64,000 nt of DNA from Actinomycetota bacterium (GCA_009702045.1 WLIV01000019.1:1-64000); one strand, 5' to 3'. Counted from the first letter of the stretch, positions 16,054 to 39,153 are shown. A program made the numbers and translations. Notes: generated from the letters alone by a model not told the origin.

Positions 16054-16101
16054 CGTTGGTTCCCCCGAACCCCAAGCAGGCGCGCGGCCCGATGTGTCGC
16101 T

Positions 16102-16142
16102 ACAGTAGCCCCACTTGGCCGTTTGCTCAACACTGTTCAGCA
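16102..16142 (-). promoter_or_regulatory. Operator A and livF promoter (livF-tetR intergenic)
   Basis: TGCTCAACACTGTTCAGCA (16124-16142) is a near-perfect palindrome whose core, TCAACACTGTTCA (16127-16139), is repeated exactly at 20632-20644 before the first PKD hydrolase. On the minus strand the core overlaps a -35 box TTGAGC (16130-16125); after 17 bp comes a -10 box TACTGT (16107-16102). A repressor bound here would block livF and could also control tetR, whose ATG is 42 bp downstream. Confidence 0.7.
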
Positions 16143-16183
16143 GATGTCCAAGACAGCGCCACGATCCGAACCGAGCGACACGA

Positions 16184-18451: not shown

Positions 18452-18479
18452 GTGTGGTTCTCCTCGATCGATGGTGGGT

Positions 18480-20552
18480 TCAGGTGACGACGACGCGGGC
18501 CTGTGCCAGGTTGGGTACCCGACGCGTGGTCGCGGCGACGTCACCGGCGCGGTGGCTGTGCACGAGCGCCGTCACGAAGTACGTGCCGGGTGCGTCGTAG
18601 GTCTGGGTGACAGTGCGACTGATCGACGTTGCACTGCCGTCGATCGAGTCGTCCTTCAACGGATAGGCGCCCTTGCCGTCGAAGTCCCACTCGAGCGAGA
18701 TGATCGTTCCGGCGTTCGGCGGCAACTCTGCGTCAGCCGTGACGGAGACCGGTTGTCCCACCTTCACCGACGCCAGCGAGCCACCATTTGCCGAGACCCT
18801 CACCACGGCCTGGATACCGCCCCGCTCTGCGGCAGTGGCGGGCAGTGTGACCTTGCCGTCGGCGTAGCTGTACGAAGTGCCGGCGGGCTCGACGCCGCGC
18901 TCGACCCAGTCGACGAGATCGGCCATGGTCTGCTCGATAACCGGGCCGTAGTCCACCAACCAGGTGTTCACCGCACGCGGGCCTTTGGACGGGATCATCA
19001 TCGGCGGGATGTGCTCTGCGTTGTCGGTCCAGCGGATGCGGAACCGTTCGGCGGCCCCGGCCTCCCCTTGCGCTGCGAGCACGGCCTGGTGGTAGATGAT
19101 GCCCTGCGGCGGCCACAGCGATGCGTCGTGCGTGTGGTGCACCCAGATGATCTTGCCCTCGAACTCGCCCGAGTAGGAGACGCCCATCAACGGCGACATC
19201 AACGGCACTTCGTGCTGTGGGTACACCGGCACGCCGTCGAGGCGCAGCGAGTCGAACTGCGGATCTTCCATGACGTGATGGCGAGCGAAATAGCAGAACG
19301 CCAGGAAGCGACGGTTGCTCAGGTGCACCACGTCGCCGACCTTCACGCCGTTGAACCGCTGCAGGTTGGCCTCACCGTGGCCGTCACACATCAGCAGGTT
19401 GCCCACCGCCTGCGTGACGTACAGCTGACGGCCGGCCGCTTCGCCACTCGCGACCTGCACACCCGCACCCAGCATGTAGCCATACAAACCGTCGATCTCC
19501 ACGGCGTAGGGCGTGTTCATGTCGCCTCTGGACGAAGCAGTGATGCCGATGATGATGCGCAGCATCGAGTACTCATCGCCGGCAAACGCCGGATCGGACA
19601 GCATGTCGGCCGCAGTGATCACACGCTTGACCGTGAGCCGCGCATCGATCAGGTCACGCTCGACCGCCGAGGGCAGGTCATGGCCCACATAACCCGGCTT
19701 GGTCCAGAAGTTCTCGAAGTATGAGGGGTCCTGCTCCACCAACTCGTCGGCGATGGATGTCCAGAGCCAGATCTGCCCCATCGGTTCTGCGATGTTGTAC
19801 TCGTCACCGCGGGGATAGCCCTGCCGGTACAGCGATGCCAACTCTTCGCGCTCGTGCGAGTCGAGACCCTCGAACGGATTGCCACTACCACCGGGGGACA
19901 TCGCGTCGACCACTGCGTGAATGCGCTGACCGAGCAGACGCTGCACATTGAACATCGAGGCGAACGACATGGTCTGCGCCCCCTTGATGCGCTTGGTGCT
20001 GCCACGCGGGTTGACGTCGCCACCACCCATGAACGGCAGCGCACCATCCCATGCGTCGCCACCGTTCTCCAGACACAAGGGCGAACGACGACCGCCACCG
20101 CTGCCACCGAACACGTACGAGTGGTGCGGCGGCGCGCCGTAGACCTGTGCCGCCACGTACTTGGAGAAGCGGGCAACTTCAGCGCTGGCGCGATGGCCGT
20201 AGAGCGTGGGGTCATCGCCACCCTTGGGGTCGACGTTGTCGCCGATGTGCCCCTGGTTCGACTGCACGAGGTAGCCACCCAAGCGGAAGCTGAGGCCCAT
20301 ACCGCCAATCATCTCGCCGAGCGGCGTGGAGAAGAACTTCTCGTCACCGCCGTGAGCACCCGACAGCGGGTTGAACATCCGGCCTTGCCACTGCTCCTTC
20401 GACGGGAAGGCGAACTGGAACCGAGTGTCGGTACCGGAGAACCCACCATGCACGTGACGGTGCGGCGTCGGCTCGCTGCGCTCCTCGTCCTCGTCGATGT
20501 ACGGCGTTCCGAAGAACGGGTCCGTCACACCATAGCCACTTACCTCGATCAT
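18480..20552 (-). CDS. PKD hydrolase 1: tannase-like alpha/beta hydrolase with C-terminal PKD domain
   Basis: A 690-residue protein, the first of five paralogues. The SYVFGGSGGGRRSPLCLE segment (Ser151) resembles the tannase/feruloyl esterase motif G-C-S-x-G-G-R. Further on, HHTHDASLWPPQG (Asp476) and RWTDNAEHIPPM (His514) sit where that family has its Asp and His. Residues about 170-450 form a large insert with SNQGHIGD upstream, FNVQRLLG, PGGSGNPFEGL and FWTKPGYVGHDLP, all shared among the paralogues. Residues about 585-675 are a PKD domain (EWDFDG, TYDAPGTYFVTALV). No signal peptide is visible, so it is probably cytosolic. The fold and triad are inferred, and no function is established. 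Operator B controls it. GGGGG precedes ATG 20552. Confidence 0.8.
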   Translation of the reverse strand: MIEVSGYGVTDPFFGTPYIDEDEERSEPTPHRHVHGGFSGTDTRFQFAFPSKEQWQGRMFNPLSGAHGGDEKFFSTPLGEMIGGMGLSFRLGGYLVQSNQGHIGDNVDPKGGDDPTLYGHRASAEVARFSKYVAAQVYGAPPHHSYVFGGSGGGRRSPLCLENGGDAWDGALPFMGGGDVNPRGSTKRIKGAQTMSFASMFNVQRLLGQRIHAVVDAMSPGGSGNPFEGLDSHEREELASLYRQGYPRGDEYNIAEPMGQIWLWTSIADELVEQDPSYFENFWTKPGYVGHDLPSAVERDLIDARLTVKRVITAADMLSDPAFAGDEYSMLRIIIGITASSRGDMNTPYAVEIDGLYGYMLGAGVQVASGEAAGRQLYVTQAVGNLLMCDGHGEANLQRFNGVKVGDVVHLSNRRFLAFCYFARHHVMEDPQFDSLRLDGVPVYPQHEVPLMSPLMGVSYSGEFEGKIIWVHHTHDASLWPPQGIIYHQAVLAAQGEAGAAERFRIRWTDNAEHIPPMMIPSKGPRAVNTWLVDYGPVIEQTMADLVDWVERGVEPAGTSYSYADGKVTLPATAAERGGIQAVVRVSANGGSLASVKVGQPVSVTADAELPPNAGTIISLEWDFDGKGAYPLKDDSIDGSATSISRTVTQTYDAPGTYFVTALVHSHRAGDVAATTRRVPNLAQARVVVT

Positions 20553-20606
20553 GATGCCCCCAAGCTCATGGTGCTGCGGGTGCGACACACAGCCCGCGAG
20601 TGCCAG

Positions 20607-20647
20607 AACGTACCCGCGCGAACCCTTCCGGTCAACACTGTTCAAGC
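20607..20647 (-). promoter_or_regulatory. Operator B and PKD hydrolase 1 promoter
   Basis: TCAACACTGTTCA (20632-20644) is identical to the core of operator A. On the minus strand it overlaps a -35 box TTGACC (20635-20630); 17 bp later lies the -10 box TACGTT (20612-20607). The 13-mer to -10 distance is 20 bp, the same as at operators A and E1. Confidence 0.7.
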
Positions 20648-20663
20648 AATCGACGTCGCCAGG

Positions 20664-20676
20664 TCAACTTAGTTCA
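20664..20676. promoter_or_regulatory. Operator C in the PKD1-livK divergent region
   Basis: TCAACTTAGTTCA has the same outer halves (TCAAC and GTTCA) with a different 3-bp centre. It is 32 bp from operator B, about three helical turns, and lies between the two divergent promoters, so two regulator dimers could cooperate here. Confidence 0.55.
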
Positions 20677-20694
20677 ACAATCTGCGCTCACGGC

Positions 20695-20744
20695 TTGACA
20701 CCGGCGTCAGACACTGGCACGATCAGGCAGTTCAACAATGTCCG
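20695..20744 (+). promoter_or_regulatory. Probable livK promoter with a partial operator D
   Basis: TTGACA (20695-20700) is separated by 17 bp from CACGAT (20718-20723), a plausible though weak -10 box. Just downstream, TCAACAATGTCCG (20732-20744) keeps the left operator half but only part of the right half. It overlaps the expected transcription start. Confidence 0.42.
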
Positions 20745-20789
20745 ACGATGCGGGGGGAACTGCATCGCGGATCACACCAAGGGGGAACA

Positions 20790-22043
20790 GTGGGAACATA
20801 TTCACGGGCCAAATTTGTCGCGCTCGCGACCGTCGTGGCTCTTGCCGCCGTCGCCTGTAGCGATGACACGACGTCGACAACGACAACCGCACCAGCGGCG
20901 GCAGAGACAACCGTCCCGAGCGCAGGCGGCGACACCACCATCGCTACCACTGCCCCCGCCCCCGTGGACGGTCTGCCCACGACCAAGGGCGACCAGAAGG
21001 TCAAGGTCATGGTGCTCACCGATGTGACCCAGGGCCAGATCGCCTACTCGGCACCCGAGACCTACCAGGCCGTCCAGTTGGCGTTCAAGAACTTCCCGAA
21101 CGCCACGATCGACGTCTGCGACGCCAAGGGCGACCAGAACGAGTACCTCAACTGCCAGCAGAAGGCCGTCGACGGCAAGTACAACGCAGTAGTCGTCGGC
21201 TGGAGCGGCGGCGGCGGGGCCGGTGAGGACGCCCTCTACGAGGCCGGCATCCCGGTGCTCGGCGGTCAAGGCAACACCACCGACCCGCTGTCGTACTCGT
21301 TCGCGTCCGGCACGGGGAACTACGTCGGCCTCGGGGCCGGCTCGGTGCTGGCCGGTGCGACCAAGATCGGCGTGCTCTACCTGGAAGGCACCGACCAGTT
21401 GGTCGACGCGATCCAGAAGGGTGTGGAGTTCGAGAAGGGCACGGTCGTGTCCCGCGCTTCCGTGCCGAACAACGCTCCTGACCTGGCCCCTGCCGTCGCC
21501 AAGCTGTTGGGTGACGGCGCCGAACTGATCATCCTCAGCGTGTCGCCGCCGATGGTCATCCAGGCGATGACCGCGATCAAGGCGTCGGGCAAGAACCCGA
21601 AGGTCTCGGCCGTGGCTGCCATCCTGCCGCAGAAGCTGCTGGACTACATGAAGGGCGACGCCGACGGCATCTATGCCATCAGCTCGACGCTGAACAATGT
21701 CGAAGACTCGAAGGGTATGGCCGAGCTGTTGGCCGGCGTTGAGGCCATCAAGTCGGGAACTGTCCTCACCGTGCAAACGGTACTCGGGTTCGAGGCGGGC
21801 TACGTGCTGGCCACGGCGGTCGCCAGCATCACGGGTGACGTCACCGCCGACAGCTTGAAGACGGCACTCGACGCCATCGACGGCCTCGACATGGGTGGCC
21901 TCACCGGCCCGGCGAGCACCAAGTCGTTGCCGATGAAGGGCCTCGAGCGCTTCATGAACCCGTACGCGATCGTGTACCAGGTGGTGTCGGGCAAGCTCGC
22001 CAAGCAGGGCGACCTCACCGCCATCCGCGGCGCCTACACCTGA
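20790..22043 (+). CDS. LivK-like substrate-binding lipoprotein of the ABC importer
   Basis: A 417-residue extracytoplasmic binding protein. The N-terminus (VGTYSRAKFVALATVVALAAVAC) is a lipoprotein signal with the lipidated Cys at residue 23, followed by a Thr/Ala-rich linker. The mature part has a periplasmic-binding-protein fold type I; QKVKVMVLTDVTQGQIAYSA and the TKIGVLYLEGTDQLVDAIQ region are typical. GTG 20790 lies 6 nt after AAGGGGGAA. The protein gives the importer its specificity, but the ligand cannot be told from sequence; its mix of features does not clearly match leucine-binding LivK. It heads the plus-strand operon with livHMG and PKD hydrolase 2. Confidence 0.85.
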   Translation: MGTYSRAKFVALATVVALAAVACSDDTTSTTTTAPAAAETTVPSAGGDTTIATTAPAPVDGLPTTKGDQKVKVMVLTDVTQGQIAYSAPETYQAVQLAFKNFPNATIDVCDAKGDQNEYLNCQQKAVDGKYNAVVVGWSGGGGAGEDALYEAGIPVLGGQGNTTDPLSYSFASGTGNYVGLGAGSVLAGATKIGVLYLEGTDQLVDAIQKGVEFEKGTVVSRASVPNNAPDLAPAVAKLLGDGAELIILSVSPPMVIQAMTAIKASGKNPKVSAVAAILPQKLLDYMKGDADGIYAISSTLNNVEDSKGMAELLAGVEAIKSGTVLTVQTVLGFEAGYVLATAVASITGDVTADSLKTALDAIDGLDMGGLTGPASTKSLPMKGLERFMNPYAIVYQVVSGKLAKQGDLTAIRGAYT

Positions 22044-22065
22044 TCAGCACTGAGTGCAACGCACT

Positions 22066-22151
22066 CGACGGTGTGGCCGGCCTTCGGGCCGGCCACACCG
22101 TCGTCTGTCTCGGGGATGCTCATCGGTGAGCGTCCCCGAGACAGACGACGG
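22066..22151. other. Two overlapping strong hairpins between livK and livHMG
   Basis: The first hairpin pairs 22066-22082 with 22087-22103 (17 perfect pairs, TTCG loop). The second pairs 22098-22122 with 22127-22151 (25 positions, one T-G wobble, TCGG loop). They share 22098-22103, so they cannot both form fully. No U-run follows. Position after a binding-protein gene suggests transcript-end protection or partial termination, giving more LivK than permease. Confidence 0.75.
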
Positions 22152-22203
22152 TCATCGACCAGCCGATTTCTCGGTACCCATCCAGTGATCCTCTCGGCCC
22201 GAA

Positions 22204-22248
22204 GCCACTCTGACCAAAGCCATTCTGACCAAAGCCATTCCGAAAGGT
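22204..22248 (+). repeat. 15-bp tandem repeat before livHMG
   Basis: GCCACTCTGACCAAA, GCCATTCTGACCAAA and a third, degraded copy (GCCATTCCGAAAGGT) lie head to tail just upstream of the livHMG start. The third copy has become the ribosome binding region (AAAGGTAGGA). Confidence 0.7.
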
Positions 22249-22257
22249 AGGAATCAA

Positions 22258-24978
22258 GTGGACGTCCTCCGCTTCTCGTTGCTCGGTGTCGGAGCCGGCG
22301 GGCTCTACGCACTCGCCGCGATCGGTCTCGTGCTCGTCTATCGAGGGTCGGGTGTCGTCAACTTCGCCCAGGTGGCCATCGGCATGTTGGGCGCGTACGT
22401 GTACTTCGAACTGCGCATGCAGCACGGCTTCGATTCCACCGCCGGGCAATACTTCGCGCTGTTCGCCGGGCTGTTGTCCGCTGCGGCGCTGGGCGGGTTG
22501 TTCCACCTGCTCGTCCTGCGGCGTATGCGGCAGGCATCGCAACTCGCCCGCATCGTCGCCACGCTGGCGTTGATGATCACGATCACCAGCGTCGCCTTCT
22601 GGCGCTACGGCGGGAACCCTCGGGTCGTTCGTGGCCTGCTGCCGACCGGGCCGATGACGGTGTTCGGCGCAGCAGTGGGCAAGGACCGCATGATCATCGT
22701 GTTGATGGTGGTCGTGATCACCTTCGTGCTCTGGGCGATCTATCACTACACCACATTCGGTGTCGCCACCTCCGCAGTTGCCGAGAATCCGCGCGCTGCT
22801 GCCTCGCTGGCAGTGTCGCCGGACACGATCGCCGCAATCAACTGGTCCGTCGGCGGAGCGCTCGCCGGTCTGGCGGTGATCATGCTCGTGCCGATCACCG
22901 GGCTGGGGCCGGGCAACATCACATTCCTGGTGGTGCCGGTCCTCGCCCCCGCGGTCATCGGCAAGTTCTCGTCGTTCCCGATCGTCACCGGCGCTGGCAT
23001 CGCCCTTGGCGTGACGCAATCGCTCATCACCCGCTACGTCGAGACCTCGGGCTGGGCCACAGCAGTTCCCTTCCTGTTCGTCGCCGTCTACCTCATCGCT
23101 CGCGGCAACACCGTCGCCGGCAAGGACGAGCGCTTCGGCCGCATGCCCGCACTCGGCACCGGCAAGATTCCGCCCGGCCTGGTGCTGTTCGGCTTCGTCG
23201 TGTCGCTCTTCCTGATCTGGTTCGTGTTCCCACGCACCTACATCCAGGCGTTCGAGGTCCAACTGCTCATCGGCCTGGTCATCTGCTCGTTCGTCGTGAT
23301 CACCGGCTACGCCGGCCAGATCTCTCTGGCACAGATGGCCATGGGCGGTCTCGGCTCGCTGATCTGCGCATTCCTCGCCACCCGTTGGCACTGGCCGCTG
23401 GAACTCGCCTTCGTCGGAGGCGTGCTGTCCACCGTGCCCGTCGGCCTGATCCTGGCATTCGCCGGTGTGCGCACCCGTGGCGTCAACCTGGCGATCCTCA
23501 CACTCGGCTTCGCAGTCTCCCTGGAAGCCGTCGTCCTGGGGAACGTCAAGTTCCGCGGCGGCATGACCGGTTACCGACTGAAGAACCCGAAAGTGTTCGG
23601 CATCGAGATTGCCGTCACCCGCCACCTCGAGCGGTACACGACGCTCAGCCTGATCATTCTCGTCGTGGTGATGCTCTCCATCGCCAACCTGCGCCGCGGC
23701 CGTGCCGGGAGGCGTTTGATCGCGGTGCGCACCAACGAACGCGCTGCCGCGGCGCTCGGCGTCTCCGTCGTCGGGGCGAAGGTCTATGCCTTCGTGCTCA
23801 GCGGCATGATCGCAGCGGCCGCCGGCATCCTGCTGATCTTCCGTCTGCCGATCGTGCAGTTCGGCGACTTCGGCGCCGTCACCTCGATCCTGCACCTGCA
23901 GAACGCCGTGCTCGGTGGCGTCGGTACCCTCGGCGGCCCACTCGTCGGCTCCGGCTTCGCCGCCGGCGGCGTCAGCCAGCAGATCTTCTCCTTCATCGGC
24001 TCGAACGTCGGCGTCATCCTCGCGGTCGTCGGCGGCTTCGGTCTGCTGATCATGCTCACCATGTCGCCTGACGGTCTGGCCTTCCAGATGCGTCACCAGA
24101 ACGCATGGTGGCTCGACCGGATCCGCGCCAAGCTGCCGTCGCGCAAGCGGGCGTACGACCTGAGGGCGCTCGGCGCCGACAGCACCGAGCACGTGCCGGC
24201 CAAGGTGCTGGAGGTGCGCGGTCTCACCGTGCGCTTCGGCGGCGTCGTCGCGCTGTTCGAGTTCAACGTGGACGTGAACCCCGGCGAGGTCGTCGGTCTC
24301 ATCGGTCCTAACGGCGCTGGCAAGAGCACTGCCATCGAGGCGATGACCGGGTTCGTCAAGCCGAGCACCGGCTCGGTGCGGTTCGACGGCGTGGACATCA
24401 GCGAGTGGAACACTGGCCGTCGTGCACGCGCCGGCCTGTCCCGCTCGTTCCAGTCGTTGGAGCTGTTCGAGGACCTCACCGTGCTCGAGAACATCCTGGC
24501 TGCATGCGACCGGCGCGATGTCACCGCCTATCTCACCGACCTGGTGAAGCCGGGCCGCGGCACGCTCACCCCGGCGGCAGCTGCTGCGCTGGTCGACTTC
24601 GGTTTCGAGGGCAGGCTGGAGACAAAGGTCTCCGATCTGTCCTACGCCGAGCGCCGCATGTTGGCCGTCGCCCGTGCAGTGGCGGGTGGGCACTCGGTGC
24701 TGATGCTGGACGAGCCGGCCGCCGGTCTCGACGACGTCCAGACCCGCCTGCTGGGCGAGTCCATCCGGCGCCTGGCCGCCGAGCGCGGCGTGGGGGTGCT
24801 GTTGGTCGAACACAACGTCGACATGGTGCTGCGCACCTGCGACCGCATCGTGGCGCTGGAGTTCGGTGAAGTGATCGGCACGGGCACGCCCGACGAGATC
24901 CGCAACAACGATCGCGTGATCGACGCATACCTCGGCACCTCGCGCTTTCGCGAAGAGAACGCTGCCGCCGCCGAGTGA
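22258..24978 (+). CDS. LivH-LivM-LivG triple fusion of a branched-chain-type ABC importer
   Basis: A 906-residue protein. Residues 1-285 correspond to LivH (VNFAQVAIGMLGAYV), about 300-605 to LivM (ITGYAGQISLAQMAMGGLG, LTLGFAVSLEAVV), and about 648-895 to the LivG ATPase. The ATPase has Walker A GPNGAGKST (683-691), the variant signature LSYAERRML (794-802) and Walker B VLMLDEPAAGLD (814-825). The two permeases and one ATPase are thus made in one chain. The second ATPase, LivF, is separate at 15307-16053. GTG 22258 follows AAAGGTAGGA. The frame is intact throughout, so this is a true fusion rather than a frameshift artefact. Confidence 0.93.
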   Translation: MDVLRFSLLGVGAGGLYALAAIGLVLVYRGSGVVNFAQVAIGMLGAYVYFELRMQHGFDSTAGQYFALFAGLLSAAALGGLFHLLVLRRMRQASQLARIVATLALMITITSVAFWRYGGNPRVVRGLLPTGPMTVFGAAVGKDRMIIVLMVVVITFVLWAIYHYTTFGVATSAVAENPRAAASLAVSPDTIAAINWSVGGALAGLAVIMLVPITGLGPGNITFLVVPVLAPAVIGKFSSFPIVTGAGIALGVTQSLITRYVETSGWATAVPFLFVAVYLIARGNTVAGKDERFGRMPALGTGKIPPGLVLFGFVVSLFLIWFVFPRTYIQAFEVQLLIGLVICSFVVITGYAGQISLAQMAMGGLGSLICAFLATRWHWPLELAFVGGVLSTVPVGLILAFAGVRTRGVNLAILTLGFAVSLEAVVLGNVKFRGGMTGYRLKNPKVFGIEIAVTRHLERYTTLSLIILVVVMLSIANLRRGRAGRRLIAVRTNERAAAALGVSVVGAKVYAFVLSGMIAAAAGILLIFRLPIVQFGDFGAVTSILHLQNAVLGGVGTLGGPLVGSGFAAGGVSQQIFSFIGSNVGVILAVVGGFGLLIMLTMSPDGLAFQMRHQNAWWLDRIRAKLPSRKRAYDLRALGADSTEHVPAKVLEVRGLTVRFGGVVALFEFNVDVNPGEVVGLIGPNGAGKSTAIEAMTGFVKPSTGSVRFDGVDISEWNTGRRARAGLSRSFQSLELFEDLTVLENILAACDRRDVTAYLTDLVKPGRGTLTPAAAAALVDFGFEGRLETKVSDLSYAERRMLAVARAVAGGHSVLMLDEPAAGLDDVQTRLLGESIRRLAAERGVGVLLVEHNVDMVLRTCDRIVALEFGEVIGTGTPDEIRNNDRVIDAYLGTSRFREENAAAAE

Positions 24979-25021
24979 ACCTCGGCCCACACACGTACAC
25001 ACCACACGTAGGAGTACTGCC

Positions 25022-27097
25022 ATGATCGACCTCTCGTCGTACGTCCCCACTGATCCCTATTTCGGGGCACCGTTTATCGATGTGGATGAAGAGCGCGCGC
25101 TCCCCGCTCCGCACCGTCATGTACACGGCGGGTTCGAGAACACCGACACCCGTTTCCGCTTCTGGTTTCCGCCCAAGGATCAGTGGGGCGGGAGAATGTT
25201 CAACCCGCTGTCGGGCGCGCACGGCGGCACGGAAGACTTCTTCGGTTCACCGTTCGGCGAGATGATCGGCGGGCTGGGTACATGTTTCCGGCTCGGCGGC
25301 TACATGGTCGAAAGCAACCAGGGGCACTTCGGTGACGACCTCGATGCACGCGCCGGCGGCGATCCCACGCTCTACGGTCACCGCGCGAGCGCCGAGGCGG
25401 CGCGCTTCTCGAAGTATGTCGCCGAGCAAATCTACGGCGCAGCGCCGCACCACTCATACGTGTTCGGCGGTAGCGGCGGCGGTCGGCGGTCGCCGCTGTG
25501 CCTGGAGAACGCACCTGGCGTGTGGGACGGAGCGTTGCCGTTCATGGGCGGCGGCGACGTTGCCGAGCCGGGAAACACTCAGCGAGTCAAGGGCGCGCAG
25601 AACATCTCGTTTGCGACCATGTTCAACGTGCAGCGACTCCTGGGCGAGCGCCTCGCATCGGTGGTCGATGCGATGGCTCCGGGAGGCTCTGGCAACCCCT
25701 TCGAGGGCCTCACCACCCACGAGCGCGAGGAGCTCGCCAGCCTCTATCGCCAGGGATTCCCTCGCGGCGACGAGAAGATGATCGGCGAGCAGATGGGGCA
25801 GATCTGGTTGTGGTCAGCCACCGCCGATCTGCTGTTCGAGCAGGACCCCGAGTACTTCACCAACTTCTGGACCAGGCCCGGCTACGTCGGCCACGACCTA
25901 CCCGATGCCGTCGCCGGCGATGTCATCGACGTCGAGTTGACCGTCGCTCGGGTGGTCACCATCGGCGACATCGTCAGCGACCCGATGTTCCTCGCACCCG
26001 AGTACGCACAGATGTACCGCTCGGCACTCACCTGGAGTCACATGGGCTCCCCCACCGACCTCGCGGTCGCCGTTCAGATCACCGGCGTCGGAGCGGGCTA
26101 CCGCCTCGGCATGGGTATTCAGGTGCTCGACGGTGTAGCCGGCGGACGCCAGCTGTATTGCACCCAGTCGGCTCACGACTTCTACTTCTGCGATGGCCGC
26201 GGCGAGGCCAGCATCGTTCGCTTCGGTGGCGTACAGGTCGGCGACAAGGTGCACGTCGACAACCGCCGCTTTCTGGCCTATTGCTATTGGGCACGTCACC
26301 ACCTCCTGCCCGATCCGGTGTTCGATAGCTTTCGCCTCGATGGAGTCGCGGTCTACCCACAGCACATTGCTCCCGATCAGTCGCCACTGATGGGCGTCGC
26401 CTACTCCGGCCAGTTCACCGGCAAGTTGATGTGGGTGCACCACACCCACGACTCCTCGCTGTGGCCGCCGCAGGGCCTGGTCTACAAGGGTGCCGTCCTG
26501 CGCTCGCAGGGTGAGGCCGGCCTGGAGCACTTCGCGTTGCGCTGGACCGACCATGCCGAGCACGTGCCACCGATGATCTTCCCGCCGTCCACCAGCGGGC
26601 GACCGAACAACACCATTCTCGTCGACTACCTCCCCGTGATCGAGCAGTCGCTCAAGGACCTCGCCAGCTGGGTGGAGGACGGCATTCGACCGGCGGAGAC
26701 GCAGTACCGCTACGCAGATGGCAAGGTGACGCTGCCCGAGACGGCGGCCGAACGCGGCGGTATCCAGCCAGTCATCCAGCTGTCGGCCAATGGCGGCCAA
26801 CGAGCTGATGTGAACGCCGGCGAGACGGTGACGTTGGCCGTGAACGCCTGCGTACCGGTCGGCACCGGAACCTTGATCGGTCTGCACTGGGACCTCGACG
26901 GCAGCGGCGAGTTCGGCACCCACATAGGCGGAATCGACGGTTCGTCCGCCGAGGTGTCGCAGGTGCTCGAGCACATCTACACCTCGCCTGGCACCTACTT
27001 CGTCAGCGTGCTCGCCGAGTCACACCGCGAGGGCGACGTGGACGCCACCTCGCGTCGCGTCCCCAACCTGGCCCAGGTGCGTGTAGTCGTCAACTGA
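25022..27097 (+). CDS. PKD hydrolase 2
   Basis: A 691-residue paralogue of the gene at 18480-20552, and the only one on the plus strand. The proposed nucleophile segment SYVFGGSGGGRRSPLCLE, the Asp in HHTHDSSLWPPQG and the His in DHAEHVPPMI are intact. The PKD domain has GLHWDLDGSGEF and IYTSPGTYFVSVLAESH. It begins MIDLSSYVPTDPYFGAPFID without a signal peptide. AGGAG stands 8 nt before the ATG, and 43 bp separate it from livHMG, so hydrolase and importer are made from one mRNA. This ties the paralogue family to a transported substrate. Confidence 0.82.
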   Translation: MIDLSSYVPTDPYFGAPFIDVDEERALPAPHRHVHGGFENTDTRFRFWFPPKDQWGGRMFNPLSGAHGGTEDFFGSPFGEMIGGLGTCFRLGGYMVESNQGHFGDDLDARAGGDPTLYGHRASAEAARFSKYVAEQIYGAAPHHSYVFGGSGGGRRSPLCLENAPGVWDGALPFMGGGDVAEPGNTQRVKGAQNISFATMFNVQRLLGERLASVVDAMAPGGSGNPFEGLTTHEREELASLYRQGFPRGDEKMIGEQMGQIWLWSATADLLFEQDPEYFTNFWTRPGYVGHDLPDAVAGDVIDVELTVARVVTIGDIVSDPMFLAPEYAQMYRSALTWSHMGSPTDLAVAVQITGVGAGYRLGMGIQVLDGVAGGRQLYCTQSAHDFYFCDGRGEASIVRFGGVQVGDKVHVDNRRFLAYCYWARHHLLPDPVFDSFRLDGVAVYPQHIAPDQSPLMGVAYSGQFTGKLMWVHHTHDSSLWPPQGLVYKGAVLRSQGEAGLEHFALRWTDHAEHVPPMIFPPSTSGRPNNTILVDYLPVIEQSLKDLASWVEDGIRPAETQYRYADGKVTLPETAAERGGIQPVIQLSANGGQRADVNAGETVTLAVNACVPVGTGTLIGLHWDLDGSGEFGTHIGGIDGSSAEVSQVLEHIYTSPGTYFVSVLAESHREGDVDATSRRVPNLAQVRVVVN

Positions 27098-27121
27098 GCT
27101 GTGATCTACCCGAAAACGAGA

Positions 27122-27159
27122 TGAGCGGTGCAGGTCAATTCGTTGACCCGCACCGCTCA
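27122..27159. terminator. Bidirectional terminator hairpin
   Basis: TGAGCGGTGC-A-GGTCAA pairs with TTGACC-C-GCACCGCTCA around a TTCG loop (16 pairs, one mismatch). It sits between the convergent PKD hydrolase 2 and amidohydrolase 1. Confidence 0.75.
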
Positions 27160-27173
27160 ATCGGGAAGCCGGA

Positions 27174-28550: not shown

Positions 28551-28645
28551 GTTGTTCCCCTTGTGTGTTCTGTTCCCTGGAGTTGGTTGCAGCCTCCGCC
28601 GCGTCACTCGAGGGGGTAAGCGATTGAAATCCTGTGCCACTCGGT

Positions 28646-30721: not shown

Positions 30722-30752
30722 TGCTCTCGCTCTCCTGTGTTCAAGTTCTGTT

Positions 30753-30799
30753 GCGTTTGAAGCCGCAACCGCACCCTGTGCGGTTCAGGCTTCAAACGC
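30753..30799 (-). terminator. Long stem-loop in the leader of PKD hydrolase 3
   Basis: GCGTTTGAAGCC (30753-30764) pairs with GGCTTCAAACGC (30788-30799), and inside it AACCGCAC pairs with GTGCGGTT around a CCT loop: 20 pairs with a small internal bulge. It lies between the amidohydrolase 2 stop and the PKD hydrolase 3 start on the minus strand. It may attenuate transcription or act as an RNA processing site; no U-run is visible. Confidence 0.6.
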
Positions 30800-30820
30800 G
30801 GCTGGGATGGGTCCGGAATC

Positions 30821-30860
30821 GGGTGGGTCAGGGTGGGTCAGGGTGGGTCAGGGTGCGTCA
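30821..30860 (+). repeat. Four tandem GGGTGGGTCA units with G-quadruplex potential
   Basis: Three exact 10-bp units and one with a single change (GGGTGCGTCA). The plus strand has six spaced GGG tracts with loops of one and three bases, a pattern expected to form a G-quadruplex in DNA. The complementary C-rich strand is the sense strand for the PKD operon. The last unit contains the TGA stop of amidohydrolase 2. Confidence 0.75.
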
Positions 30861-32222: not shown

Positions 32223-32287
32223 CCTCGGATCCCCATTTCTCTGTGTAGTTCGACATCCCCACACCGATCCCCCGATCGGCCGTGGGG

Positions 32288-34378
32288 TCAGTTCACGACA
32301 ACTCGCGCCTGGCCGATCGTCTCGATACGGTCGAGCACGCCATTCAGTTCGCCGGCGCGGTGAGAGTTCACACGCGCCGTCACGAAGTACGTGCCCGGCG
32401 TGTCGTACGTCCTCGTGGTGCTCAGCGTGAGCGTGCTCCGACTGCCGTCGACCTCGTCGTGACGGAACGGGTACGTTCCCGAACCGTCGAAGTCCCAGAG
32501 CACCTCCACAATGGTGCCTGCACCTGGCGGCACTGTCGCCTTCACCACCAGTTGCACCGGCTCGCCGACCTTCACCTCGGCCCGCAGCACACCGTTGGCG
32601 GCGACATGGGCCACCGGCTGAATGCCACCGCGCACGCTGGCATCTGCGGACAACACGACCTGACCGCTGCGCACCGAGTAGTTCGTGCCCGCAGGCTCGA
32701 CCCCAAGTTCGACCCAGTCGACGAGATCCCTCAACGACTGCTCCATGATCCCCCGATTGTCGATCAACCTCGTGGCCGCCACTCGCCGCGGCTCGGGCGG
32801 CACCATGTGGTACGGCCCGTGCTCGGCGAACTCGGTCCAACGGATGCGGAAGTTCTTGGCCGCACCCTCCTCACCCTGCGCCTGCAACACGGCTCGGTGG
32901 TACAGCGTGCCCCACCCTGGCCACACGGACGAGTCGTGCGTGTGGTGGATCCAGAGCAACTTGCCCTCGTACTTGCCCGAGTAGCACACGCCCATCAACG
33001 GCGACATCTCCGGCACCGGATGCTGCGGGAAGATCGGCACACCGTCGAGGCGTAGATGATCGAACGCGGGCTCGTCATCCATGACGTGGTAGCGGGCGAA
33101 GTAGCAATAGGCCAGGAACACTCGGTTACTGACGTGCACCTTGTCGCCGGGCTGCACGCCCATGAACCGCTTGGTGTTCGCGTCGCCGGTGCCGTCGCAG
33201 GCGAACACGTTGCCAGCCACCCCGGTGGCGTGCAATGAGCGGCCAGCGGCGCCACCCGTCAGCACCTTGACATTGGCGCCCACCCGGTAACCGCCTTCGA
33301 TACCGGCAAGCTCCACCGCATAGGGGAAGTCGTACGCGTCGCTTCCCGCGCCGACGATGGCGGCGAGGATGCGCATGGTCTGGAACTCGGGTCCGGCGTA
33401 CTCGACCAGCTCGTTGAGTTCGCGGGCGGACAGCGTGCGCACGACAGTGCACTCCTGATCGATCAAATCGCCCAACACGGCATCGGGCTCGTCGTGACCC
33501 ACGTACCCGGGCTCGGTCCAGAACTTGCGGAAGTACTCGGGATCGTTGGTCACCAACTCGTCGGACAGCGAGGTGTACAACCACATCTGACCCATCGGTT
33601 CGCTGATCATGAACTCGTTGCCTTGCGCGTAGCCCTGGCGGTACAGGCTGGCGAGTTCGTCGCGCTGGTGCGATGTCAGGCCCTCGAACGGATTCCCGCT
33701 GCCTCCCGGCGCCATCCGGTCGGCCAGAGCGATGATGCCCGCCTTGCCGAGCAATCGCTGCACATTGAACATCTGGCCGAACGACATCACCGAACCGGCC
33801 TTCACCCGCTTGGTGTTGCCGTGCTCGGCAATGTCACCTCCGCTGGTGGACGGCATCGCGCCGTCCCACACACCCGGGCTGTTCTCCAGGCACAGCGGCG
33901 AGCGGCGACCGCCACCGCTGCCCCCGTACACATATGCGTGATGCGGTGCGCTGCCGTAGACCTGCGCGGCGACATACTTCGACAGCCGCGCCGACTCCGC
34001 GCTGGCGAGGTGACCGTAGAGCGTGGGGTTGTCGCCGTGGCGTGGATCGAAGTTGTCGCCGATGTGACCCTGGTTCGACTCGACCATGTACCCACCGAGG
34101 CGTGCACCGAGCGCGATGCGCTGGAACATCTCGCCGAGCATGCCACCGCCGAACGTGACCGTGTGACCCCCGTGGCCACCCTCGAGCGGCTGGAACATGC
34201 GGCCCTGGTACTGCTCGGCCGGCGGGAAGTAGAACGCGAAACGGGTGTCCGTCTCCGCGAAGCCACCCTCGATGAAGCGGTGCGGCGACGGCCGTTCGCG
34301 GGCTTCATCGATCTCGATGTACGGGGCGCCGAAATACGTGTCGGTCACCTGGTAGCCGGAGAGGTCGATATCGCTCAC
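32288..34378 (-). CDS. PKD hydrolase 4
   Basis: A 696-residue member of the family. The elbow is AYVYGGSGGGRRSPLCLE; the proposed Asp lies in HHTHDSSVWPGWG and the His in TEFAEHGPYHMVPPE, where two extra residues interrupt the usual AEHxPP. The PKD domain has LWDFDGSGTYPFRHDEVDG and TYDTPGTYFVTARVNSH. The extreme C-terminus (VLDRIETIGQARVVVN) differs from the RRVPNLAQARVVV of most copies, though the last residues agree. It follows the SDR gene by 38 bp and precedes amidohydrolase 2. Confidence 0.82.
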   Translation of the reverse strand: MSDIDLSGYQVTDTYFGAPYIEIDEARERPSPHRFIEGGFAETDTRFAFYFPPAEQYQGRMFQPLEGGHGGHTVTFGGGMLGEMFQRIALGARLGGYMVESNQGHIGDNFDPRHGDNPTLYGHLASAESARLSKYVAAQVYGSAPHHAYVYGGSGGGRRSPLCLENSPGVWDGAMPSTSGGDIAEHGNTKRVKAGSVMSFGQMFNVQRLLGKAGIIALADRMAPGGSGNPFEGLTSHQRDELASLYRQGYAQGNEFMISEPMGQMWLYTSLSDELVTNDPEYFRKFWTEPGYVGHDEPDAVLGDLIDQECTVVRTLSARELNELVEYAGPEFQTMRILAAIVGAGSDAYDFPYAVELAGIEGGYRVGANVKVLTGGAAGRSLHATGVAGNVFACDGTGDANTKRFMGVQPGDKVHVSNRVFLAYCYFARYHVMDDEPAFDHLRLDGVPIFPQHPVPEMSPLMGVCYSGKYEGKLLWIHHTHDSSVWPGWGTLYHRAVLQAQGEEGAAKNFRIRWTEFAEHGPYHMVPPEPRRVAATRLIDNRGIMEQSLRDLVDWVELGVEPAGTNYSVRSGQVVLSADASVRGGIQPVAHVAANGVLRAEVKVGEPVQLVVKATVPPGAGTIVEVLWDFDGSGTYPFRHDEVDGSRSTLTLSTTRTYDTPGTYFVTARVNSHRAGELNGVLDRIETIGQARVVVN

Positions 34379-34416
34379 GTTGAGTTCCTCGTAAATGCGG
34401 AGATTGTGACGGTGGG

Positions 34417-35172
34417 TCAGTGATTGATCAGTCCGCCGTCCACCAGGACGTCGGAACCGGTCATGAACGAAGCCTCGGACGAGGCGAGGAAGGCGGCGAC
34501 GGCGGCGATCTCCTCAGGCTGAGCGACACGCTTGACGAGCGATGCCATCAGCAGGCCGTCCATTGCCCCGGGCTGCGCGAGTTGGTCTGCCGAGCCGGGG
34601 GTCTGCACAACTCCCGGGCTGATACTGAGTGCCCGCACCCCGTGCGGTGCACCTTCGGCGGCCATCACGTGGGTCATTGCCAGAACGGCGGCCTTCGTAG
34701 CTGAGTGGCCGATGCCGCCGGGGCCGCCACCGTGCCCGGCAACGGATGCGGTGTTCAGGATGAGACCCTGGCTTGCACACAGATGTGGCCATGCGGCCTT
34801 GGTGGCAACAAACACCAGCGTCAGCTCGTTGCGGATCGTGAAGTCCCACTGCTCGCGCGTCATCTGGTCGATGAGCGCGAACACGCACGCCGACGCGTTG
34901 TTGTAGAGCACGTCAATCCGTCCGCGACGCGCGACCACGGCATCGACCCACAGTTGGCACGATGCCTCTTCGGCCAAGTCGATCGGCGCCGTAGCGCGCA
35001 TCACTCCTCCAGACGCGGCGACCAGCGCCGCCGTCTCGGCGTTTCCCTCGACATCGAGGTCGCAACCCTCGACGAGGGCACCCTCGGCAGCGAAGCGGAT
35101 TGCTGCCGCACGGCCCATCCCGCTGGCAGTGCCGGTGATCATCGCCACCTTGCCTTCGAGTCGACGTTCCAT
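34417..35172 (-). CDS. SDR-family protein with His at the catalytic Tyr position
   Basis: A 251-residue short-chain dehydrogenase/reductase. MITGTASGMGRAAA is the nucleotide-binding TGxxxGxG motif, CDLDVEG suggests NAD preference, and NNAS and NTASVAG are in place. The active-site motif reads GHSATKAAV, where the family has YSASK or YSATK: the catalytic Tyr is His (codon CAC, 34710-34712 region), while Ser and Lys remain. Activity may be altered or lost. Its ATG overlaps the PKD hydrolase 5 stop by one base (TGATG), so it is translationally coupled to that gene. Confidence 0.88.
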   Translation of the reverse strand: MERRLEGKVAMITGTASGMGRAAAIRFAAEGALVEGCDLDVEGNAETAALVAASGGVMRATAPIDLAEEASCQLWVDAVVARRGRIDVLYNNASACVFALIDQMTREQWDFTIRNELTLVFVATKAAWPHLCASQGLILNTASVAGHGGGPGGIGHSATKAAVLAMTHVMAAEGAPHGVRALSISPGVVQTPGSADQLAQPGAMDGLLMASLVKRVAQPEEIAAVAAFLASSEASFMTGSDVLVDGGLINH

Positions 35173-37265
35173 CAGTGCACCACCACTCTCGCTTGAGCAA
35201 GATTCGGCACACGCCGGGAAGTGGCACCGACATCGCCGGCGCGATGCGACCACACTTTGGCGGTCACGAAGTACGTACCCGGAGTGCCGAACGACTGGGT
35301 GATCGTGCGAGTAACGCTGGCCGCCGTGCCGTCGATACCTTCCTCGTGCCGCGGGAACGTGCCCGATCCGTCGACATCCCAGTCGACCGCGATGATGCCA
35401 CCCGTGCCTGGCGGTACCTCGGCGAACACCTCGACGGTGACGGACTCGTCGACGGCAACCTCTGCTCGCACGCCGCCGTTGGCAGTGACGGTGACCACGG
35501 GCTGGATACCGCCACGCTCGGAGGCAGTTGCCGGCAGGGCGACCTGCCCGTTGGCGTAGGTGTAGGTGGTGGCGATCGGACGCACACCGTGCTCGACCCA
35601 ATCGACGAGGTCGGCGAGGCCCTGCTCGATCACCGGCGAACTGTCGATCAGCCAGGTGGCGGCGCTGCGGTTCGGCAGCGACGGAATCATCACCGGCGGC
35701 ATGTGTTCGGCGTTGTGCGTCCAGCGGATGCAGAAGTGGTCGTCCACCTGGTCGCCCAGTGCAGCCCGTGCAGCCTTCTCATAGATCACACCTTGGGGCG
35801 GCCACAGCGATGCGTCGTGGGTGTGATGAACCCACAGCAACTTGCCCTGCAACTCGCCCGAGTACGACACCCCCATCAACGGCGACATCAGCGGCACCGG
35901 GTGCTGCGGATACACGGGCACACCGTCCACCCGCAGCGAGTCGAACTGCTCGTCCTCCATCAGGTGGTGGCGGGCGAAGTAGCAGAACGCCAGGAACTTG
36001 CGGTTGTCGACATGCACCTGATCGCCCACGGAAACGCCACGGAAGCGCTCGATGTTCGCCTCGGCAGGACCGTCGCAGGAGAACAAATCGCCGGACACCC
36101 CAGAGGCGTACAGCTGACGGCCGGCTGCAGGGCCGGTGAGCACCCGCACCCCGGTGCCGAGCCGGTACCCAGCTCCTACTCCGTCGAGTTCAACGGCGAT
36201 GGGCAGCGACCAGTCGCCCGACATCGTCGCCATGATCAGTGCCAGGTTGCGCAGCGTTTCGTACTCGGCGCCGGAGTAGCCCTCCAGCGCGACGAAGTCC
36301 TGTGCGGTGAGCACCCGCCGCACAGTGGCCGTGACGTCGATGACGTCGGGCATCACCAAGTCGGGTTGGTCGTGGCCCACGTAGCCGGGCTTGGTCCAGA
36401 AGTCGGCGAAGTACGTGGGGTCCTGTTCGACGAGCATGTCGGCGATCGAGGTCCAGAGCCAGATCTGTCCGAACGGCTGGCTGATGATGAACTCGTCGCC
36501 CATTGGGAAGCCCTGGCGATAGAGGCTGGCCAGCTCCTCGCGCTGGTGCGTGTCCAAGCCCTCGTACGGGTCGCCGCTGCCACCGGGCGCCATTGCATCC
36601 GTGACGTCGAGGATCTGCGTGCCGAGCACTCGCTGCACGTTGAACATCGAGGCGAACGACATCACCTGCGAACCCCTGATGCGTGACGTGCTGCCCAACG
36701 GGGCGATGTCGCCACCGCCCATATAGGGCAGCGCTCCGTCGTACACGTCTGGAGCATTCTCCAGACACAGCGGCGAGCGACGGCCGCCGCCACTGCCACC
36801 GAACACATACGAGTGATGCGGCTGGTCGCCGTAGATCTGAGCCGCAATGTGTTTCGAGAACCGTGCACATTCGGCGCTCGCGCGATAGCCGTACATGCGC
36901 GGATCGTCGCCAGCACGTTGATCGATGTCGTCACCGATATGGCCCTGGTTGGACTCCACCATGTACCCGCCGAGACGTGTGATCATCGGGAGACCCACGC
37001 GCTCGAACACCAGCTCCCCGTCGAAGCTGCGCTCGTGGCCGCCGTGCCCGCCTTCGATCGGCTGGAACATGCGACCCTGGTACCCCAGGTCCGGGAAGTA
37101 GAACGTGAATCGAGTGTCGGTGTCGGCGAAGCCGCCGTGCACGAGTCGGTGCGGAAGTGGCGTGTCGCGGTGGATGTCTTCGTCCAGGTAGGGCGCGCCG
37201 AAGTACGAATCGGTGACGCGGTACGACGGCGCCTCCAGCCCGCCGAGCGGTGCATTCGCCGTCAT
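35172..37265 (-). CDS. PKD hydrolase 5 (first gene of the long PKD operon)
   Basis: A 697-residue member of the family with an N-terminal extension of about eight residues (MTANAPLGGLEAPSYRVTD). The elbow SYVFGGSGGGRRSPLCLE, Asp in HHTHDASLWPPQG and His in THNAEHMPPVM are intact. The PKD domain has AVDWDVDGSGTFP and SFGTPGTYFVTAKVWSH. It starts the minus-strand operon PKD5-SDR-PKD4-amidohydrolase2-PKD3-amidohydrolase1, and its promoter carries operators E1 and E2. Like the others it has no signal peptide. Confidence 0.82.
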   Translation of the reverse strand: MTANAPLGGLEAPSYRVTDSYFGAPYLDEDIHRDTPLPHRLVHGGFADTDTRFTFYFPDLGYQGRMFQPIEGGHGGHERSFDGELVFERVGLPMITRLGGYMVESNQGHIGDDIDQRAGDDPRMYGYRASAECARFSKHIAAQIYGDQPHHSYVFGGSGGGRRSPLCLENAPDVYDGALPYMGGGDIAPLGSTSRIRGSQVMSFASMFNVQRVLGTQILDVTDAMAPGGSGDPYEGLDTHQREELASLYRQGFPMGDEFIISQPFGQIWLWTSIADMLVEQDPTYFADFWTKPGYVGHDQPDLVMPDVIDVTATVRRVLTAQDFVALEGYSGAEYETLRNLALIMATMSGDWSLPIAVELDGVGAGYRLGTGVRVLTGPAAGRQLYASGVSGDLFSCDGPAEANIERFRGVSVGDQVHVDNRKFLAFCYFARHHLMEDEQFDSLRVDGVPVYPQHPVPLMSPLMGVSYSGELQGKLLWVHHTHDASLWPPQGVIYEKAARAALGDQVDDHFCIRWTHNAEHMPPVMIPSLPNRSAATWLIDSSPVIEQGLADLVDWVEHGVRPIATTYTYANGQVALPATASERGGIQPVVTVTANGGVRAEVAVDESVTVEVFAEVPPGTGGIIAVDWDVDGSGTFPRHEEGIDGTAASVTRTITQSFGTPGTYFVTAKVWSHRAGDVGATSRRVPNLAQARVVVH

Positions 37266-37343
37266 TCCATGCCCCCCATATCAACCCCCGAGTCATGTGC
37301 CACGCCTGCGAACCCCCCAGCCCGCAACGGCGTGACACACGGG

Positions 37344-37404
37344 ACTGTAGCAACACCTGCGCCGCCGTTCAACGCCGTTCAGACAAAATCTTGAACGGCG
37401 TTGA
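37344..37404 (-). promoter_or_regulatory. Operators E1/E2 and PKD hydrolase 5 promoter
   Basis: TCAACGCCGTTCA (37369-37381) and its exact reverse complement TGAACGGCGTTGA (37392-37404) form an inverted pair 10 bp apart. On the minus strand E1 overlaps a -35 box TTGAAC (37372-37367); 17 bp later is the -10 box TACAGT (37349-37344). The 20-bp distance from 13-mer to -10 equals that at operators A and B. The rest of 37266-37427 shows no gene. Confidence 0.72.
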
Positions 37405-37427
37405 AGCACGTCGACGCGGCGAGGAAA

Positions 37428-38846
37428 TCAGCTGACTGGCGGGCGTTCGTTCCGCGGGAACGCCTGCTGGAAGGCACGGGCGACACGCATCACGAGGTCT
37501 TCCCGGCCGTGCCAGCTGGCGATCTGCAGACCGACCGGCAGACCGTCAACGAACCCACACGGCACCGACACTGCCGGGAACCCCATCCAGTTGAAGATCA
37601 TCGTGTGGCTGCAGTACACCGGGGCGAAACTTCCGCCGGGGAACGACGGACCGCGGGTTGACCAGTTCGCGTCCCAGTCGTCGGTCGTGTCGGCCGTCCG
37701 TTGCGCCGTCACTGACATGACCACATCGACTTCCTGGAACAGCCTGCGGAACTTTTCCCAGTTCCGTCCCCGACTCTCCGCTTGCGCCTGGTAGAGGTCG
37801 GGATCGACCTGCTGCGCAGGCTGAGTCAGCGTGCCAACCATCGCTTCGTACACCGCTGGCTCGACGGTCCAGCGCACGGTTCCATGTTCGGCGCGGTCCT
37901 CCCACACCTCGTCGGTGGTCTCCACGGTGGCACCCAGCGAGCGCAACGAGAACGCTGCGGCGCGGGCAATGTCCACAAGTTGCGGGCTCTTCTCCGTGGC
38001 GTAACGGAATGCGTGGCCCCACTCTTCGCTCCAGGCCATCTTCATCCCGGCAACGCCGTCGTCGATGGTGCTCAGGATGTCGGGCGTCGGCGTCTGCAGA
38101 GTGACGTAGTCCCGACCATCGGGGCCAGCCATCGCCTGCGTGAACAGCGCAGCATCGCGAGCATCGCGGGCCAGCGGGCCGAAACTCGCGGTCAACAACA
38201 TTTTCGGCTTCTCGTAGTCGATGTGCGGGATCAGACCGCGCGATGTGTGCAGGCCAACCACACCCGAGTACGCGGCCGGCAGACGCGTGGATCCTCCGCC
38301 ATCCGAGCCGATGGTCACCGGCAGCAGGCGCGCCACCGCGGCCGCTGCGCCACCGCTGCTCGACCAACCTGGAACACGAGTCGTGTCCCAGGGGCTGAGC
38401 GCCTCCGCCTGCCAGTTGAACGGCAGGAACACCCCGGGACGATCCGGATCCATCCGAGCCCCGCCACCGGCACCCATCATCGTGTTGGTGCCGACGATGA
38501 TCGCCCCAGCAGCACGCAAGCGCTCAACACAGAGGTCATCCCACTTCGACACCGTCGAACCGGTGGCGCCGGTGACACCAAGTCCCTCCACGCGGATGTG
38601 CGACTTCACCGACGTGGGGAGGCCCTGCAGCAATCCCAACTCCTCACCGGCCAACACCTTGGCGTCAGCCGACTTGGCCTGCGCCCGGGCGCCGTTCCAG
38701 TCGACCTCCTCGAAGGCATGGAGGGTGGGGTTGTGTTCCTCGATGCGGCCGAGGAAATGCTCGGTCACCTCCGTGCACGACAGTTCCTTCTTGCCGATCA
38801 ATTCGCGCATCTGCCACGCAGGCATCCAGGTCAGTTCTTCGGACAT
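37428..38846 (-). CDS. Amidase-signature family hydrolase
   Basis: A 472-residue amidase-signature enzyme that hydrolyses amides. The catalytic Lys lies in LPTSVKSHIRVEG; SSGGAAAAVA and GSDGGGSTRLPAAYSGVVGLH carry the Ser-cis-Ser pair (family usual GSDTGGSIR). The protein ends IASWHGREDLVMRVARAFQ, as expected. ATG 38846 begins MSEELTWMPAWQMRELIGKK; AAGGGGAA stands upstream. The longer frame reaching 39497 is not coding. It lies just upstream of the PKD5 promoter in the same direction and may be transcribed separately or read through into the operon. Confidence 0.93.
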   Translation of the reverse strand: MSEELTWMPAWQMRELIGKKELSCTEVTEHFLGRIEEHNPTLHAFEEVDWNGARAQAKSADAKVLAGEELGLLQGLPTSVKSHIRVEGLGVTGATGSTVSKWDDLCVERLRAAGAIIVGTNTMMGAGGGARMDPDRPGVFLPFNWQAEALSPWDTTRVPGWSSSGGAAAAVARLLPVTIGSDGGGSTRLPAAYSGVVGLHTSRGLIPHIDYEKPKMLLTASFGPLARDARDAALFTQAMAGPDGRDYVTLQTPTPDILSTIDDGVAGMKMAWSEEWGHAFRYATEKSPQLVDIARAAAFSLRSLGATVETTDEVWEDRAEHGTVRWTVEPAVYEAMVGTLTQPAQQVDPDLYQAQAESRGRNWEKFRRLFQEVDVVMSVTAQRTADTTDDWDANWSTRGPSFPGGSFAPVYCSHTMIFNWMGFPAVSVPCGFVDGLPVGLQIASWHGREDLVMRVARAFQQAFPRNERPPVS

Positions 38847-38880
38847 TGCAGTGTTCCCCTTGTTCTGTGAGTCGTTGTTG

Positions 38881-38906
38881 GTGATGGTTGGTGGTGATGG
38901 TTGGTG
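38881..38906 (+). repeat. 13-bp tandem repeat upstream of the amidase
   Basis: GTGATGGTTGGTG occurs twice head to tail (38881-38893, 38894-38906) and is followed by a third partial copy. It lies between the amidase start and the collapsed PKD gene. Slippage during replication is the likely origin. Confidence 0.6.
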
Positions 38907-38926
38907 GTGGTGCGAGTCGCGTGGTG

Positions 38927-39100
38927 TCAGCTGACGACGACTCGCACCGAGGCGAGGTTGGGCAGCCGTCTGCTGATGGCAGTCACGTGGCCATCGACGT
39001 GCGAGTGCACCAACGCTGTGGCGAACCAGGTTTCCAGCGTGTCCCATGCGTGCGTAGTGGTACGGCGTACGTTCGGCGACGAACCGTCGAGATCGATCAT
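38927..39100 (-). pseudogene. Collapsed sixth PKD hydrolase (C-terminal remnant)
   Basis: A 57-codon frame, ending in TWFATALVHSHVDGHVTAISRRLPNLASVRVVVS, matches the last ~55 residues of the PKD hydrolases (for example YFVTALVHSHRAGDVAATTRRVPNLAQARVVVT). The beginning, MIDLDGSS, could join the start of a copy (MIDLSSY in PKD hydrolase 2) to a PKD segment (W-D-L-D-G-S). About 630 codons are missing. An operator of the family lies just upstream at 39154-39168, at the place expected for the promoter, but the -10 position reads GTCGTT. This is best explained as an internal deletion of a sixth paralogue. A short protein could still be made. Confidence 0.75.
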
Positions 39101-39153
39101 GTGCAGTGCCCCCAATGCTCGAAGCCATCAACGACACTCCCCCGAGTGCCCTC

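Follow-up and report, generated by a model that had tools for sequence, protein, structure and literature searches.

We found five paralogous genes, Tan1 to Tan5, in an island (positions 18480-39100) of the window, the whole 64,000-nt stretch of an Actinomycetota bacterium analysed here (GCA_009702045.1 WLIV01000019.1:1-64000). With a probability of roughly 0.6, their products are cytoplasmic serine hydrolases that work on imported ester compounds and belong to the tannase/feruloyl esterase/MHETase superfamily as a divergent, disulphide-free branch. The enzyme family itself is known; what is new is the disulphide-free, PKD-bearing and probably cytoplasmic branch, and the fivefold cluster with an importer.

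Five intact copies and a relic of a sixth

A preliminary description of this DNA had placed five intact genes for proteins of about 690 residues at 18480, 25022, 28646, 32288 and 35172. Inspection bore this out, as all five frames are open at these places and contain no internal stops (Table 1). The TTG start of Tan1 in the ORF list, at 20645, lies upstream of the ATG. The five motifs said to recur in a common order (SNQGHIGD, GGSGGGRRS, PGGSGNPFEGL, HTHDxSxWP and AEHxPP) were found so in all five proteins, with small variants: TNMGHIGD and GGSGGARRS in Tan3, PGGSGDPYEGL in Tan5, and AEHGPY in Tan4. Pairwise identities among the copies, 50-65% for protein and 59-67% for nucleotide sequence, are far above chance. 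A search of the whole 3.65-Mb host genome returned only the five intact copies and one relic, and no further members of the Pfam Tannase family were found there.

Table 1. Genes and other features in and beside the island (window positions; G063 and G141 are sister genomes)
Feature	Position	Strand	Remarks
LivF-type ATPase of importer	15307-16305	-	PF00005 95.3 bits; true start further in; outside the island
TetR-type regulator	16115-16798	+	PF00440 35.9 bits
Type-B carboxylesterase	16847-18544	-	PF00135 330 bits; next to Tan1, also in G063 and G141
Tan1, PKD-tannase-like serine hydrolase (predicted)	18480-20552	-	690 aa from ATG; S151, D476, H514; PF07519 56.3 bits, PF00801 28.0 bits
HAAT (LIV-type) substrate-binding lipoprotein	20748-22043	+	PF13458 Peripla_BP_6 80.6 bits; sole copy of its kind in the genome
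Fused HAAT permease-permease-ATPase	22258-24978	+	906 aa; PF02653 twice, PF00005, PF12399; 85% identical and syntenic in G141
Tan2	25022-27097	+	691 aa; S151, D477, H514; PF07519 39.6 bits
Stem-loop	27122-27159		17 pairs; between convergent Tan2 and AHyd2_a; stands out by length
AHyd2_a, PF04909	27174-28550	-	dinuclear-oxygenase-like ligand set DxH, H, E, D..H.E
Tan3	28646-30721	-	691 aa; most divergent copy, different lineage; PF07519 26.0 bits
AHyd2_b, PF04909	30858-32216	-	same ligand set as AHyd2_a; best solved relatives DitZ, PtmU3
Tan4	32288-34378	-	696 aa; PF07519 38.8 bits
SDR	34417-35160	-	PF13561; 11 nt from Tan5, same strand; syntenic in G063 and G141
Tan5	35172-37265	-	697 aa; PF07519 49.1 bits
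Amidase-signature protein	37428-38855	-	upstream of Tan5; PF01425 208.6 bits; syntenic in G063 and G141
Relic, last ~63 residues, matching PKD-like domain	38927-39127	-	66-codon frame, upstream of the amidase gene

The five genes span more than one operon, with Tan2 on the opposite strand. Tan2 starts 43 nt behind the fused importer gene and probably belongs to its operon, and the spacing indicates that the SDR gene is probably in one operon with Tan5 and Tan4. The stem-loop behind Tan2 is a probable terminator; terminator-like sites show no excess in the Tan region overall.

The collapsed copy that had been reported is present as a 66-residue remnant of the C-terminal domain at about 38930-39127. 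Over 63 residues it matches the C-terminus of Tan1 at 51% identity, and a search for Tan homology upstream of it was negative. The relic also occurs in G063, where 961 nt align at 97.8% nucleotide identity, so the decay predates the split of these two species; it was not found beside the amidase gene in G141. Compared with G063, the relic has a dN/dS of 0.42, based on few changes; the intact copies lie at 0.07-0.24.

Relation to tannases and a candidate triad

The relation to tannases and feruloyl esterases, previously proposed from motifs, holds at the superfamily level by family scores, fold matches and profile matches. The Pfam Tannase model (PF07519, cut-off 29.8 bits) was passed by four of the five proteins (Tan1, 2, 4 and 5), with Tan3 just under. 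Three passed the PKD model (PF00801, cut-off 23.5 bits), namely Tan1 and Tan3 at 28.0 bits and Tan4 at 23.7 bits, while Tan2 (22.0) and Tan5 (13.8) stayed under. DUF6351 (PF19878, cut-off 22.4 bits), a tannase-like family with no assigned function, matched weakly over the nucleophile region (E 2e-4 in Tan4), but none of the five reached its cut-off (best 20.3 bits). There was no NCBIfam model for the Tan proteins, and phmmer with Tan2 alone returned nothing credible from the PDB. A sequence profile of the Tan family gave weak matches to PDB entries for tannase and feruloyl esterases, and aligned with canonical tannases across residues 19-174.

An AlphaFold2 model of Tan2, built on 15 sequences with a mean pLDDT of 84.9, was then compared with solved structures, as the preliminary description had proposed for Tan1. 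Its topology around the triad residues fits an alpha/beta hydrolase. The best 28 PDB matches in a Foldseek search, with probability 1.0 and E-values between 9e-13 and 6e-8, were MHETase, feruloyl esterases, an Aspergillus oryzae esterase and A. niger tannase. The TM-scores were only about 0.3 and the rmsd about 18 A, with the whole chain poorly superposed; either the domain arrangement differs or it is poorly modelled. Profile and fold thus both match PF07519 members (A. niger tannase 7K4O, AoFaeB 3WMT, Ideonella MHETase 6QGA/6QZ3), and both groups have a large insertion between Ser and Asp, the order Ser-Asp-His, and a WVExGxxP motif after the catalytic His. The Asp-His spacing is 37 residues here and 36 in MHETase (PMC7568301).

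The numbering S151, D476 and H514 given earlier for the triad of copy 1 is right. The corresponding residues S151, D477 and H514 of Tan2 do not vary among 18 homologues; even one of only 37% identity keeps them, though the HTHD motif around them is changed. In the model, Ser lies between strand 144-149 and helix 151-163, Asp after strand 468-473, and His after strand 504-508; pLDDT falls below 50 at residues 478-480 and 523-526. A global profile alignment placed the Tan Asp on the tannase Asp, and matched the His by motif and position only. The invariant columns and the modelled topology support S151-D477-H514 as a candidate catalytic triad at the positions expected in an alpha/beta hydrolase.

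Differences from characterised tannases

Characterised tannases, feruloyl esterases and MHETase carry a CS-D-HC motif, in which a Cys before the Ser and a Cys after the His are linked by a disulphide, and this active-site disulphide has been described as fully conserved among characterised members of the superfamily (PMC7070470, PMC7568301). In contrast, all 18 Tan family sequences have Gly150 and a non-cysteine residue (V/I/M/L/G/T) at 515, and hence lack the CS-D-HC cysteines. Tan proteins contain 3-7 cysteines, compared with 12-15 in five canonical tannases that adjoin Tan homologues in other genomes; these five have both the CS-D-HC motif and a hydrophobic N-terminal stretch. No signal peptide or hydrophobic N-terminus was found in the Tan proteins, whose maximum N-terminal hydropathy is 0.07-0.52 in the five copies against 2.65 in the cluster's own lipoprotein, and they are probably cytoplasmic. 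The PKD-like C-terminal domain and the clustering of several copies with an importer are further differences from characterised PF07519 members.

Lacking both the CS-D-HC cysteines and signal peptides, the Tan proteins are therefore not tannases proper, and these sequence features mark them as a separate PKD-bearing, disulphide-free and probably cytoplasmic branch of the PF07519 superfamily. That they act as serine ester hydrolases, as we infer, is a claim apart from the naming and independent of PF07519 membership. The earlier view of an undescribed system stands in part. RefSeq already names some homologues 'PKD domain-containing protein' or 'tannase/feruloyl esterase family alpha/beta hydrolase', whereas a description of the Tan branch was not found in literature on PKD tannases, DUF6351, intracellular tannase and TonB/tannase clusters.

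The importer and other neighbours

The HAAT locus is complete, with a Peripla_BP_6 receptor, two permeases and two ATPases. We discarded a 976-aa minus-strand ORF (22120-25050) because it runs antisense to the importer gene. The importer, amidohydrolases, amidase and TetR regulator that had been noted near the copies are all present, except that the two PF04909 'amidohydrolases' may not be hydrolases. Absent from that account were the carboxylesterase, the SDR, an isochorismatase-like protein, a CoA-transferase, and the second ATPase outside the island. Near the Tan genes are a CoA-transferase III and an Amidohydro_3 protein. The importer, SDR, amidase and carboxylesterase genes adjoin the same Tan genes in G063 and G141, and this synteny favours the dedicated pathway proposed earlier.

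HAAT genes also lie near Tan homologues in G124 and in Frankia sp. QA3. Because HAAT importers are common in Actinomycetota, such linkage is weak evidence of substrate flow. At one G124 locus (L051, 3558-14508), a Tan homologue of 37-38% identity is flanked by a cytochrome P450 on one side and, on the other, by a HAAT importer that includes an MFS-ATPase fusion.

PF04909 neighbours

Both AHyd2 proteins have D10, H12, H206, E283, D347, H350 and E352 (numbered by the first row of the alignment). The metal ligands of AibH2 are D25, H27, H211, E265, D337 and H340, and an extra acidic residue occurs in the dinuclear enzymes only (PMC7782822). Like PtmU3, AibH2 and SfbO, the AHyd2 proteins thus keep all AibH2 ligand positions and the acidic residue, and DitZ and PtmU3 are their best PDB relatives. 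Unlike AibH2 and SfbO, they have no adjacent Rieske or reductase partner; the 64-kb window contains no Rieske (PF00355) gene, and 10 are found elsewhere in the genome. Of the genome's 26 PF04909 proteins, about 15 have the D..H.E signature, which is thus not particular to the island. PF04909 also takes in carboxylases, hydratases and hydrolases (PMC10811679). As a reasoned lead from these residues, AHyd2_a and AHyd2_b may be dinuclear metal oxygenases. A fold model of AHyd2_b built on only four sequences reached a pLDDT of 51, too low for use. No paper on DitZ was traced in the literature.

In G141 (L056, 851-5935), a further copy, Tan6, lies between two PF04909 genes, one of them 54% identical to AHyd2_b; the Tan-PF04909 pairing therefore recurs within the genus. 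A general partnership was rejected: of the other loci searched with the AHyd2 profile, G141 alone has such genes beside Tan genes. Other amidohydrolase-family genes do occur within 10 kb on the annotated Caulobacter plasmid.

Selection, history and distribution

Every Tan orthologue pair compared is under purifying selection. Against the G063 and G141 orthologues, dN/dS was 0.09 and 0.14 for Tan1, 0.24 and 0.22 for Tan2, 0.14 and 0.09 for Tan4, and 0.08 and 0.14 for Tan5; the value for Tan3 was 0.07. G063 has all five copies, two of them cut by contig ends. G141 has Tan1, 2, 4 and 5 together with Tan6 and, where a contig breaks off, 16 residues that are probably the start of Tan3.

A maximum-likelihood tree of 29 proteins placed Tan1, 2, 4, 5 and 6 in one clade with a protein of another acidimicrobial genome (100/99), and grouped Tan3 with Frankia, Caulobacteraceae and gammaproteobacterial (BRH_c0) sequences (98/95). 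As Tan3 groups outside, the cluster is not one recent local amplification, and a single recent expansion of the copies on the spot is ruled out.

Searches of other genomes returned relatives, with HAAT genes or canonical tannases near some of them. The Tan family is patchy across Actinomycetota, Pseudomonadota and Verrucomicrobiota, and sometimes on plasmids. Relatives were found in 4 of 151 genomes of the host's family, 3 of 15 of its genus and 4 of 396 of its phylum, as well as in 7 of 299 genomes related to a Caulobacteraceae carrier and 5 of 295 related to a gammaproteobacterial carrier. Eight plasmid records have a Tan relative; searches of phage and viral collections for such relatives returned none. 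Outside the genus, a carrier often has 3-7 matches, most of them scattered, and the tight five-copy cluster was seen only in the genus of the host. In one locus (L009, 10001-12075), a Tan2-like gene is apparently split by a frameshift near 10150, possibly an assembly error or a pseudogene.

Two plasmid proteins, WP_062097800 of Caulobacter sp. FWC26 (RefSeq 'PKD domain-containing protein') and WP_232469085 of Croceicoccus marinus ('tannase/feruloyl esterase family alpha/beta hydrolase'), match over their full length at 54-56% identity with the same domain order. Their loci differ in that they hold a single copy or a pair, adjoined by canonical CS-D-HC tannases, with TonB receptors and a GntR regulator in place of the HAAT importer. 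Canonical tannases lie beside or near the Tan homologue in four proteobacterial loci (L013 12165-15566, L014 12139-14880, L029 17301-18980 and L030 22744-24708), a pairing that hints at a division of labour between secreted and cytoplasmic enzymes.

Proposed function and alternatives

On the reading that we favour, cytoplasmic hydrolysis of imported esters, the HAAT importer would take up a small ester or lactone, probably aromatic or terpenoid. The five enzymes, diverged by 35-50% and each kept by selection, would cut related ester bonds through the usual acyl-enzyme route of the Ser-Asp-His residues; fold and residues come from sequence and model, and the chemistry is proposed. Specificity would depend on the lid between Ser and Asp, and the PKD-like C-terminal domain would have a structural role or aid assembly. 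Judging by the gene neighbourhood, the products would go to the two PF04909 proteins, the SDR, the amidase and the carboxylesterase. Ester specificity is a guess, because no characterised Tan relative was found.

It is unlikely that the Tan enzymes act instead on CoA thioesters or lactones made in the cell during catabolism; we know of no thioesterase in PF07519. The importer and the ester-type neighbours (carboxylesterase, amidase) are compatible with either substrate source. A cytoplasmic location and the CoA-transferase III nearby would suit CoA-linked substrates, as would the resemblance of the PF04909 neighbours to PtmU3, which is active on such compounds (PMC7782822). Cleavage of peptide or amide bonds, in the manner of S28 prolyl peptidases, appears improbable: prolyl endoprotease and DPP2/DPP7 followed among the fold matches, at E-values of about 2e-6 to 1e-4, and an amidase and an Amidohydro_3 protein are nearby, but MHETase, feruloyl esterases and tannase scored far better, and the sequence profiles match tannases, not S28. 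That the five differ in nothing but dosage, as redundant copies of one specificity, is equally hard to credit, since despite a shared domain order and shared motifs throughout they are only 50-65% identical, Tan3 is a separate lineage, and each is kept in at least one sister genome.

Extending the favoured ester-hydrolase reading, we tentatively suggest that the island is a dedicated catabolic module. Several cytoplasmic, disulphide-free PKD-tannase-like esterases that differ in specificity would break down a single imported multi-ester compound or a group of such compounds, together with amidohydrolase-fold dinuclear oxygenases. No account of such a layout was found for the tannase superfamily. 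The superfamily includes MHETase, which acts on plastic monomers, and plant-cell-wall esterases. A cytoplasmic branch without the disulphide, if true, would show the triad working in its absence and would allow easier production in E. coli. The cluster is a natural panel of five paralogues for specificity mapping, and points to a catabolic pathway in uncultured Acidimicrobiia.

Other features of the window

A complete molybdenum hydroxylase of the xanthine/CO dehydrogenase type, with large, FAD and 2Fe-2S subunits, is encoded at 44081-47849, followed by an SDR and a carboxymuconolactone-decarboxylase-like protein. The stretch 53749-56704 encodes two small proteins whose hydrophobic N-terminus ends in ASYAAF; they flank a 501-aa protein with a signal-peptidase-like stretch, SGSMRP; by sequence the set looks like a secreted pair of the SipW/camelysin type. 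A DUF7065/Rv3169-like protein at 41000-41935, directly behind a phosphotransferase, is 100% identical in G063.
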